Shown here piece after piece: positions 39,639 through 42,561 of a stretch of DNA of 42,561 nt. This stretch comes from an uncultured bacterium (GTDB lineage Bacteria; Actinomycetota; Actinomycetes; S36-B12; CAIYMF01): NCBI GenBank assembly GCA_903927265.1, contig CAIYMF010000141.1, forward strand, positions 1 to 42,561. The letters run 5' to 3'. The translations under genes and the position numbers were made by a program. A model generated the notes under the pieces. It was given only the letters and a program-made list of their open reading frames with translations, was not told where the DNA came from and searched no databases. Positions within the stretch are counted from its first letter, which is position 1. Each line of letters opens with the position of its first letter.

Positions 39639-40724
39639 ATGCCCAAGCCTAGGCGTTCTAAGGGTTCGGGAACGGTCAGACAACTAGCGTCTGGCAGGTT
39701 CCAAGCGATCATGGTGCACGACGGCCAACGGCAGGCGCGCACCTTTGAGACGAAGGCAGGCGCACAGGGTTGGCTGAACTCGCAGCGCCAAGACATCACC
39801 GATGGAGTATGGACGCCGACACCGGCCGCAGGTGGCCGAGCGCCCACGTTCGCGGATTACGCGCCGCAGTGGCTCGCACGACGCGATCTGAAGCCGCGCA
39901 CGCGCCACGATTACCAAGCACTCCTCGACGCGTACCTGACGCCAGTCTGGGCTGACGTGCGACTGGATCGAATCAGCGTGGAAGATGTCGAGCAGTGGCA
40001 CGCCGGACTACTTCCCGATGCACCCACGCAACGCGCGCATGTCTACAGTCTGCTGCGCACGATCTTGACCACGGCGTACCAGAAGGACATCATTCCGGCG
40101 AACCCTTGCCGCGTACCAGGTGCAGGTTCGGCCAAGCGCGCATCGACCACGGAGATTCCGACAGTGGCGCAGGTTGCCGCATTGGCTACGGCGATGCCGT
40201 CGACGAAGTACCGGCTGATGGTGCTGATGGCCGCGTGGTGCGGGTTGCGTTACGGCGAACTCACAGAGCTGCGCGGCGCTGACATCATCGACGGCCGCGT
40301 GAAGGTATCGCGCGCAGTGTCTCGCGTGGGCGGTCAGTACGTCGTCGGTGATACCAAGAGTGAAGCGGGAGTGCGTACCGTGGCTGTGCCGTCTTTCATC
40401 AGGGATGAACTCGACGACTTCGCGGCCGGTGTCGCTGCTGGTGCGCTGCTGTTCCCGTCGTCGCGTGGCCACTCCCATATGGCACCGAGTGCGTTCTACA
40501 AGGTGTTTTACCCTGCGCGCGACTCTGTCGGCTTGCCTGACCTTCGCTTCCATGACCTGCGCCACTTCCAAGGCACGATGTACGCGCAGACCGGCGCGAC
40601 ACTTGCCGAGATTCAAGGCCGACTCGGTCACTCCACTGTGCAAGCCGCGATGCGTTACCAAGGAATCGCGCAGGGACGCGATGCGGAATTGACCGAACGC
40701 ATGGCGGCGCTAGCGAGTCAGTAA
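39639..40724 (+). CDS. int: Tyrosine recombinase / phage-type integrase
   Basis: 361-residue tyrosine integrase. The N-terminal arm-binding segment (GSGTVRQLASGRFQAIMV, residues 9-26) precedes the SAM-like core-binding domain (about 70-155), and the catalytic domain covers 172-361. All catalytic residues are present: R204 (CGLRYGEL), K240 (DTKSEAG), H305 and R308 (FHDLRH), H331 (RLGHS) and nucleophile Y340 (MRYQ). ATG 39639 is preceded by GGAAGGTGG; the earlier ATG frame start crosses the operator-like repeat. It sits beside the tRNA fragment, which is its probable att site. Confidence 0.95.
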   Translation: MPKPRRSKGSGTVRQLASGRFQAIMVHDGQRQARTFETKAGAQGWLNSQRQDITDGVWTPTPAAGGRAPTFADYAPQWLARRDLKPRTRHDYQALLDAYLTPVWADVRLDRISVEDVEQWHAGLLPDAPTQRAHVYSLLRTILTTAYQKDIIPANPCRVPGAGSAKRASTTEIPTVAQVAALATAMPSTKYRLMVLMAAWCGLRYGELTELRGADIIDGRVKVSRAVSRVGGQYVVGDTKSEAGVRTVAVPSFIRDELDDFAAGVAAGALLFPSSRGHSHMAPSAFYKVFYPARDSVGLPDLRFHDLRHFQGTMYAQTGATLAEIQGRLGHSTVQAAMRYQGIAQGRDAELTERMAALASQ

Positions 40725-40738
40725 GTGGGTGGCAATAG

Positions 40739-40759
40739 TTATCCACAGTTGCATCCACA
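40739..40759 (+). promoter_or_regulatory. Two DnaA-type boxes
   Basis: TTATCCACA at 40739-40747 is an exact DnaA box, and GCATCCACA at 40751-40759 matches seven of nine positions in the same orientation, 12 bp later. Two such boxes close together beside phage-type genes suggest a replication-related site, though single boxes occur by chance. Confidence 0.45.
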
Positions 40760-40874
40760 GGCGTGTTTGCGCCGTTCTTTGTTGTGTCATACCTTGCAAT
40801 AACACGCACATAGACAGACATTCAGATAACGCCAAAGGGCATAGAGCACAGGCAAGGGCAGGAAGTTAACGTCG

Positions 40875-40941
40875 CCAGAGCGAGGTCTGGTAGCCGAGTT
40901 ACTCGGTTAGGTCGTAGGTCCGACGTGTTCGGGCAGGCCGA
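40875..40941. other. Run of four adjacent stem-loops
   Basis: CCAGA/TCTGG (40875-40890), CCGAGT/ACTCGG (40894-40906), GTCG/CGAC (40911-40924) and TCGG/CCGA (40929-40941) follow each other with short spacers. Candidates are a small structured RNA, a single-strand origin or protein-binding sites. Confidence 0.35.
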
Positions 40942-40976
40942 CATCCCACTCCCTTCACCGTGCTGACCTATGCCTG

Positions 40977-41004
40977 ATCGGGTCAGTGCGGAATCCTGAC
41001 CGAT
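40977..41004. other. Hairpin upstream of the excisionase gene
   Basis: ATCGGGTCAG pairs with CTGACCGAT with a single bulged base, around a 9-nt loop, ending 12 nt before the excisionase ATG. That ATG has no ribosome site, so the hairpin may matter for expression. Confidence 0.35.
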
Positions 41005-41016
41005 TGGTGCCCACTA

Positions 41017-41208
41017 ATGGCGAAGCACTCAAGCATTTTCGACGGACCTACCTTCACAGTTGCCGAAGCAGCAACGATGGCGCACGTCACTGAACGCACG
41101 TTGCGCCGATGGATCGCTGACGGCCTGCTCTCCGCTAAGCGAATCGGCCCGCGCCGTATCGTCATCGAGCGCAGCGAACTAGAAGCACTCGTGCGCGGTG
41201 CAGCATGA
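41017..41208 (+). CDS. Excisionase-like DNA-binding protein (MerR/HTH_17 type)
   Basis: 63-residue protein that is almost entirely one winged helix: FTVAEAATMAHVTERTLRRWIADGLLSAKRIGPRRIVIERSEL in segments. This is the excisionase (Xis/HTH_17) pattern, with the recognition helix TERTLRRWIADG and the wing RIGPRR. It would bend DNA at the att site and set integrase direction, or regulate the genes after it. No clear Shine-Dalgarno sequence precedes the ATG, so translation may be leaderless or controlled by the upstream hairpin. Its stop overlaps the next start (ATGA). Confidence 0.85.
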   Translation: MAKHSSIFDGPTFTVAEAATMAHVTERTLRRWIADGLLSAKRIGPRRIVIERSELEALVRGAA

Positions 41209-41315
41209 ACGCCAAACGCCGCCCGAAGGCGGCGCTGGTGGCTGGGCGGCCACTTGCAACGGTAACCGAATCAGTTCTTGAACTGCGTTGCCAGATCGCG
41301 GCGGTGACGCCATGA
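41205..41315 (+). CDS. Very short coupled reading frame (36 residues), unknown
   Basis: ATG at 41205 overlaps the excisionase stop (ATGA), and its own TGA at 41313 overlaps the next ATG the same way. The product begins MNAKRRPKAALVAGRPLATV and is basic at its N-terminus. No family recognised. Coupling on both sides argues it is translated, perhaps mainly to pass ribosomes on. Against this, a strong hairpin (41217-41234) lies near its start, so the frame could be a by-product. Confidence 0.45.
   Translation: MNAKRRPKAALVAGRPLATVTESVLELRCQIAAVTP
41217..41234. other. GC-rich hairpin with a CGAA tetraloop
   Basis: CGCCGCC-CGAA-GGCGGCG, a 7-bp all-GC stem, begins 12 nt into the 36-codon frame. 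It has no T-run. It may slow translation or be a leftover terminator of the excisionase unit. Confidence 0.5.
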
Positions 41316-41776
41316 CCGAGACCATAGAAGGCGTGACCCACATATGTGGGTCACGGTGCGACTCGTGGACAGACGCCGAAGCCTACTTCGCATTCTTGGA
41401 GGACTCCGAAAACGACCCGCTTCTCATCAAACACATCAACCAGATATCGCGGGAACACACGCGGCAACGCCACAAGCGCGAGACCTTGGGTCAGATAGGT
41501 GAGCAGATTGGGATATCACGCGAGTTGCTGCGGAAGTCCAGATACATCGCCAAGCACCGTGCCGATCTCAAGCCCGAAATTGAGTCTGGACACCTCAAGG
41601 TAGAGGTTGCCTATCGAGCGGCTCTAACCACGAACGGCCGCAAACTCCCCGCTCGACGCTGCTCGGCATCGACGGAGAACGCCGACGATGCGGTGCGCGT
41701 GCTGCTGCGCTACTTCGCGTGGGAGCAACTCGCGAATGCCATCAACAGGGCACCGATGTCGGACGGTGCAGCATGA
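41312..41776 (+). CDS. Helix-turn-helix protein, KorB/ParB-like (unknown role)
   Basis: 154 residues from the ATG at 41312, which overlaps the previous stop; an earlier frame start at 41288 is less likely. The central segment ETLGQIGEQIGISRELLRKSRYIAK, then EIESGHLKVEVAYRAAL, looks like the HTH of ParB/KorB-type proteins, which recognise operators or centromeres. A perfect 24-bp palindrome covers its first codons (41332-41355), so it may bind its own gene. Domain assignment is inferred from motif shape only. The stop overlaps the next start (ATGA). Confidence 0.6.
   Translation: MTETIEGVTHICGSRCDSWTDAEAYFAFLEDSENDPLLIKHINQISREHTRQRHKRETLGQIGEQIGISRELLRKSRYIAKHRADLKPEIESGHLKVEVAYRAALTTNGRKLPARRCSASTENADDAVRVLLRYFAWEQLANAINRAPMSDGAA
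41332..41355. promoter_or_regulatory. Perfect 24-bp palindrome inside a coding region
   Basis: The half-site CGTGACCCACAT is followed directly by its exact reverse complement. It covers codons 8-15 of the HTH-protein gene (reading VTHICGS in the middle). Probable dimeric-protein operator or replication/partition site. Confidence 0.75.
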
Positions 41777-42027
41777 GCAACGTCTTTGACCTGTTCAAGA
41801 GTCGCAGCGTCGTCGGCACCTGGCCACCGCCGCCCGAGTATTGGCAAGAGCGCGAACGCATTGCTGCGGCCGTCGATGTTCTCGACGTGCCACCACCTCA
41901 TCGTCGTGCCATTGATCGCGCACGGCGTGACTATCCCGGCCGCGCCGAAGAAGTTCGCCGACTGTTCCGAATCCTCGATGTCGGCAGGCGCATGGATCAC
42001 ACGTACCGTCGGCGGTGGTCATCATGA
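41773..42027 (+). CDS. Small protein of unknown function (84 residues)
   Basis: Starts at ATG 41773, overlapping the previous stop (ATGA). The 84 residues (MSNVFDLFKSRSVVGTWPPP...) are charged, with Arg-rich helices in the second half (RRAIDRARRDYPGRAEEVRRLF), and carry no signal peptide or membrane segment. No family recognised. Its TGA at 42025 overlaps the next ATG. It is one link in a chain of coupled genes that probably work in element replication or control. Confidence 0.6.
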   Translation: MSNVFDLFKSRSVVGTWPPPPEYWQERERIAAAVDVLDVPPPHRRAIDRARRDYPGRAEEVRRLFRILDVGRRMDHTYRRRWSS

Positions 42028-42561
42028 CGTGGACCAAGATCACCGACACTTTCATCACCGACCCGGCAATCATCGCGCTACCCGTACCGACTCGCTACCT
42101 CGTCATCGAGGCGCTGGTCTACTCCAACATTCATCTGACTGATGGGTGGATCAGCCGTGCCGCACTGTCTGTTGTGACTCGTCATCCCGATGCCGAGACA
42201 GCCGTGGCGCAGCTCGTCGCCGCTGGCCTATGGGACGTTCATCCTGGTGATGGCTGGCAGATTGTGGCATTCATCGGTGACCAGCGATCGGCCGAGCAAG
42301 TGCGCAATGAACGCGCGGCCAATGTGGAACGACAGAGCAAGTGGCGAGAAGTGCAACGACTTCATGGCTCTGGTGATCACTCTCGATGCTCGTCTAACTG
42401 TCGAGCGCGTAACGCCGTTAGTAACGCGTCTAGTAACGGACCCCCTGTCCAGTCCAGTCCTGACCTGACCCGTAAGGGATCAGGATCAGGACAACGTGAT
42501 GACACCGCCCCGCCTGACGGCGGCGGCGTCATCACTGGACTACCGCAACTGGCGCGCGGCA
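42024..42561 (+). CDS. Phage-type replication-region protein, N-terminal part (runs off window)
   Basis: An open frame from ATG 42024 to the window end, 179 codons visible. The first 115 residues (MTWTKITDTFITDPAIIALP, then LTDGWISRAALSVV, AVAQLVAAGLWDVHPGDGW and RSAEQVRNERAANVERQSKWRE) match the pattern of actinophage proteins with a DnaD/replication-initiator-like winged-helix domain. The Ser/Pro/Asp-rich linker after it (SSNGPPVQSSPDLTRKGSGS) is also typical. It likely loads or organises the replisome of the element. Three 12-bp repeats lie in the linker. Confidence 0.6.
   Translation, partial: MTWTKITDTFITDPAIIALPVPTRYLVIEALVYSNIHLTDGWISRAALSVVTRHPDAETAVAQLVAAGLWDVHPGDGWQIVAFIGDQRSAEQVRNERAANVERQSKWREVQRLHGSGDHSRCSSNCRARNAVSNASSNGPPVQSSPDLTRKGSGSGQRDDTAPPDGGGVITGLPQLARG
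42409..42444 (+). repeat. Three 12-bp direct repeats (iteron-like)
   Basis: GTAACG recurs at 42409, 42421 and 42433 with an exact 12-bp period; the first two units share more bases (GTAACGC). They lie inside the replication-type gene, as origin iterons do in some phages such as lambda O. Confidence 0.4.

Follow-up and report, generated by a model that had tools for sequence, protein, structure and literature searches.

A perfect 24-bp palindrome within an orphan gene of an integrated phage-like element, probably incidental to its coding sequence

Inverted repeats are a known mode of recognition for replication initiators: dimers of the F-plasmid initiator RepE bind inverted repeats (PMC13028717), and RepB of pAL5000 is reported as binding palindromes (PMC7157519). 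Here we analysed a palindrome near the start of a gene, referred to as X, in an integrated phage-like element that occupies the end of a 42,561-nt window (the whole stretch of DNA under study). The palindrome, CGTGACCCACATATGTGGGTCACG, is an exact inverted repeat with 12-bp arms and zero spacer, and it has the two-fold symmetry of a dimer operator. We consider it probably incidental, with no dedicated binding protein: a stretch of X coding sequence would simply happen to read alike on both strands, and we infer that it has no function. The coordinates of the locus and of the features compared with it are collected in Table 1.

Table 1. Features of the element around the palindrome, and other palindromes used for comparison. 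Positions without a locus prefix are those of the window.
Feature	Position	Strand	Remarks
Tyrosine integrase of the element	39639..40724	+	
Excisionase / MerR-type HTH protein	41017..41208	+	HTH_17, TIGR01764
orf36, 36 aa	41205..41315	+	ATGA start/stop overlaps with xis and X
Gene X, 154 aa, orphan	41312..41776	+	weak sigma-70-region-4-like HTH, residues 47-75
Perfect 24-bp palindrome, 12-bp arms, no spacer	41332..41355	.	X codons 7-15 (GVTHICGSR)
g4, 84 aa	41773..42027	+	relative directly before rep in L007
Replication initiation protein (rep), cut by the contig end	42024..42560	+	phrog_2447
Three 12-bp iteron-like units inside rep	42405..42440	+	GCGCGTAACGCC GTTAGTAACGCG TCTAGTAACGGA
Perfect 34-bp palindrome	L186:16013-16046		8 bp before ribbon-helix-helix/PIN (vapBC-type) toxin-antitoxin pair
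Perfect 40-bp palindrome	L173:1284-1323		near rhodanese-domain gene
Perfect 34-bp palindrome	L182:8897-8930		near rhodanese-domain gene
Perfect 22-bp palindrome TAATGGCACGGCCGTGCCATTA	L046:288-309, counted on reverse complement		G075 contig C14

The palindrome, its operon and gene X

The original prediction had described two exact 12-bp halves without a spacer, placed inside the coding sequence of an element gene, and both statements are borne out. The arms, CGTGACCCACAT and ATGTGGGTCACG, abut directly, and the repeat begins 20 nt past the A of the X start codon. It is the longest zero-spacer palindrome in the window, the runner-up having 10-bp arms, and its symmetry stops at its ends, where the flanking bases are unmatched. 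It occurs as a single copy in the 3.67-Mb genome with up to three mismatches allowed, and the exact sequence is absent from the sequence collections scanned.

The element starts past a host glucose/sorbosone dehydrogenase gene and is truncated by the contig end at 42561; a search for its continuation on other contigs found no overlap. Its genes run integrase-excisionase-orf36-X-g4-rep as a tightly packed operon, with a 4-base ATGA overlap, read from the sequence, at every junction from the excisionase onward. Because these overlaps fix it, the start of X at 41312 is secure, and the palindrome is therefore mid-operon coding sequence rather than part of a leader. A scan of 40700-42561 for promoters of the sigma-70 type, the only type covered, gave no match. 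An identical 13-mer, CGGTGCAGCATGA, closes both the excisionase gene (41196-41208) and X (41764-41776), each copy containing the ATGA overlap with the following gene.

Relatives of the integrase were located at 14 loci in 13 other genomes of the order, several of them with a matching excisionase, and X is absent from all 14 loci. The open frame of one related integrase, in another genome, has a perfect 22-bp palindrome of its own at its start (Table 1). Beyond these loci, tblastn, a pattern scan and a six-frame search were applied to genome and viral contigs, to phages and plasmids, and to several hundred related genomes, and none turned up a credible homologue of X.

The product of X had been called a helix-turn-helix (HTH) protein. 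Residues 47-75 align with sigma-70 region 4 of a sigma factor at 48% identity, and this alignment together with a sub-threshold match to Pfam Sigma70_r4 makes an HTH in X plausible; the label is weakly supported, the Pfam match (E=0.034) lying below its cut-off. AlphaFold run without an alignment produced no usable model (mean pLDDT 39), and the predicted structure of the HTH stretch alone was an implausible long helix. Codon usage in X is unusual, with ATA making up 5 of its 11 Ile codons; the frequency of this codon is 1.6% in host genes, and it does not occur in the other genes of the element that were counted, which suggests a different origin for X. Since X uses ATA all through, the ATA within the palindrome is uninformative on constraint at the DNA level, and codon bias was rejected as a sign of such constraint.

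Chance expectation and the other palindromes of the genome

For the window alone, the probability of at least one such palindrome is 0.0045 by simulation and 0.0066 by a Markov calculation. The original prediction that a match of this kind is very unlikely by chance thus holds for the single window, but not genome-wide: palindromes with arms of at least 12 bp are expected 0.14 times per 0.9 Mb and therefore about 0.5 times in the 3.67-Mb genome. The background for these estimates was a 900-kb sample from the same genome, 93.7% of which lies inside called genes, the gene calls being heuristic. At minimum arm lengths of 8, 9, 10 and 11 bp, this sample contains 25, 6, 2 and 1 intragenic zero-spacer palindromes, respectively, and the Markov expectation for the whole sample is 26.5, 7.2, 1.9 and 0.53. 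A dinucleotide expectation restricted to intragenic palindromes with arms of at least 8 bp gives about 25, against the 25 observed. Intragenic palindromes in this genome track the chance rate, and an observation that is striking in one window changes its meaning under the proper background.

The palindromes that are truly in excess in this genome are longer and lie between genes. In the same sample, perfect palindromes with 16-20-bp arms occur five times, where 0.14 would be expected from an arm length of 12 bp upward. All five fall outside called genes: two precede gene starts by 8 and 24 bp, and a third is located at a gene start. The palindrome that precedes the toxin-antitoxin pair is likely an autoregulatory operator. 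Another lies 24 bp before the gene of a rhodanese-domain-containing pyridine-nucleotide-disulphide oxidoreductase, and a further one near a rhodanese gene. These two, at L173 and L182, have in common a TATACCCC/GGGGTATA core that would be typical of CsoR/CstR-family operators, and a CsoR/CstR-type regulator probably acts at both. Perfect palindromes are thus in use in this genome, but they differ from the one in X in length and in the kind of place they occupy. Because the excess is wholly outside called genes, it was dropped as support for a function here.

An incidental origin is the likeliest reading because intragenic palindromes occur at chance level, the palindrome has no second copy, no promoter match was found and X has no homologue in the collections searched. 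Several points stand against it. The palindrome is a 0.5% event within a single window, and it starts 20 nt into the gene of a probable DNA-binding protein, a place that could suit autoregulation. Under the codon usage of X, only 0.04% of synonymous codings yield the palindrome, although any given palindrome would be similarly improbable. The region also folds with a z-score of -2.75 relative to shuffled sequences.

Protein-binding and RNA alternatives

The main rival reading, possible but unlikely, is that the palindrome is a dyad site for a dimer of an element protein, most simply X, and serves as an internal operator through a roadblock or autoregulation. Such a role would fit the perfect 24-bp symmetry and the location of the palindrome early in a probable HTH gene, and the long palindromes at gene starts elsewhere in the genome include likely operators, for example those of the vapB-type ribbon-helix-helix/PIN pair and of the rhodanese-domain genes. 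Those likely operators, however, are longer (arms of 16-20 bp) and extragenic, whereas the palindrome in X is intragenic and mid-operon, has no match to a sigma-70-type promoter and belongs to a class that occurs at chance level in the genome. No homologue of X that could show conservation of the palindrome came up in the collections searched. Nor does the palindrome, present in one copy only, belong to a family of half-sites. The original prediction had proposed looking for the half-site elsewhere; with up to two mismatches it has 15 matches in the window against 12.7 expected, which is no enrichment, and the exact 12-mer has one further occurrence in the genome, within an unrelated gene. Should binding be demonstrated, the palindrome would stand as an unusual case of a phage-like integrative element controlled by an operator within a gene.

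A role in the RNA is improbable. The transcript of the palindrome is predicted to form a hairpin with a 10-bp stem and an AUAU loop, which could tune translation, pausing or stability of the operon RNA just past the start of X, and the folding z-score given above agrees with this. However, the palindrome itself produces that score, which therefore adds no independent evidence. No T run follows the stem, so the hairpin is not an ordinary intrinsic terminator.

We also consider it improbable that the palindrome is an inverted pair of weak Rep sites, an operator in the style of iteron plasmids, where monomers take direct repeats and dimers an inverted repeat. The replication initiation gene of the element carries three 12-bp units with the core GTAACG (Table 1), and similar 12-bp units are present at the corresponding position of rep in L007, L009, Rhodococcus phage Jflix2 (L127) and Mycobacterium phage RedRaider77 (L134). 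Across these distant relatives, the direct repeats within the rep coding sequence share the core GTNACGG. These repeats resemble origin iterons lying within the initiator gene itself, an arrangement also known from lambda O. Gordonia phage reps of the same family (L125, L128, L131, L132, L133 and L136) have tandem CGACC pentamers instead, located approximately 390-450 nt into the gene.

The resemblance of the palindrome to such repeats depends on which repeats are used. Together with its flank (GTGGGTCACGGTGCGACT), the right arm agrees with the L009 repeats at 16 of 18 positions, a score equalled by 0 of 5,000 random 18-mers. When the L009 repeats alone serve as scorer, the arms come out at ranks 1 (tied) and 6 within the window, but this comparison was chosen post hoc, prompted by the match itself. 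With L009 left out, the arms rank about 70. The element's own repeats place them at 382 and 83, and the similarity of the half-site to these repeats is not significant (p 0.33-0.78). The palindrome lies approximately 670 bp before rep, and upstream inverted repeats (arms of at least 8 bp, spacer of at most 6) are absent before rep in most of the relatives examined; in the few that have one, its sequence differs from the palindrome in X. The RepE and RepB precedents (PMC13028717, PMC7157519), together with the GTNACGG-core repeats inside rep, argue for a Rep site, and the unremarkable scores against the element's own repeats argue against it; the resemblance stays a weak lead. The fuller version, in which a Rep dimer would shut its own operon through iteron-related half-sites at an intragenic operator, such that one site controls both excision and replication, is more doubtful again.

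A partition or replication site had also been proposed. That the palindrome is such a site, parS-like and recognised by a ParB-type protein, is very improbable and finds no support here. By eye, X shows some likeness to a ParB HTH at residues 58-75, but against a profile of 31 HTH regions from actinobacterial ParB proteins it scores 0.8 bits (rank 296 among 1,000 shuffles, no better than shuffled sequence), and hhalign gives a probability of 2.4%, so that a ParB relationship is not supported. Pfam finds no ParB domain in X, the site is single and no parA is seen in the element up to the contig end.

Comparison with known systems

The locus has something in common with each of three known arrangements. 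Like parS and ParB, it pairs a spacer-free palindrome with a nearby gene for a probable DNA-binding protein; unlike them, it involves a protein that fails the ParB HTH profile, no ParA is seen in the portion of the element present, and the sequence of the palindrome presumably differs from canonical chromosomal parS. With the operators of dimeric bacterial repressors it shares perfect two-fold symmetry, a length of approximately 20-24 bp and proximity to the 5' end of a gene encoding a probable DNA-binding protein, but it lies in the coding frame mid-operon, in a single copy, with no promoter match and with a partner that is putative. The comparison with iteron plasmids is similarly divided. 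The palindrome does not significantly match the element's own repeats and is far from rep, inside another gene, and the repeats themselves are inside rep rather than before it. Nevertheless, as in the Rep operators of iteron plasmids such as that of F-plasmid RepE (PMC13028717), an inverted repeat is found upstream of the initiator gene, and the likeness extends to direct repeats with a similar core in the rep family of the element.
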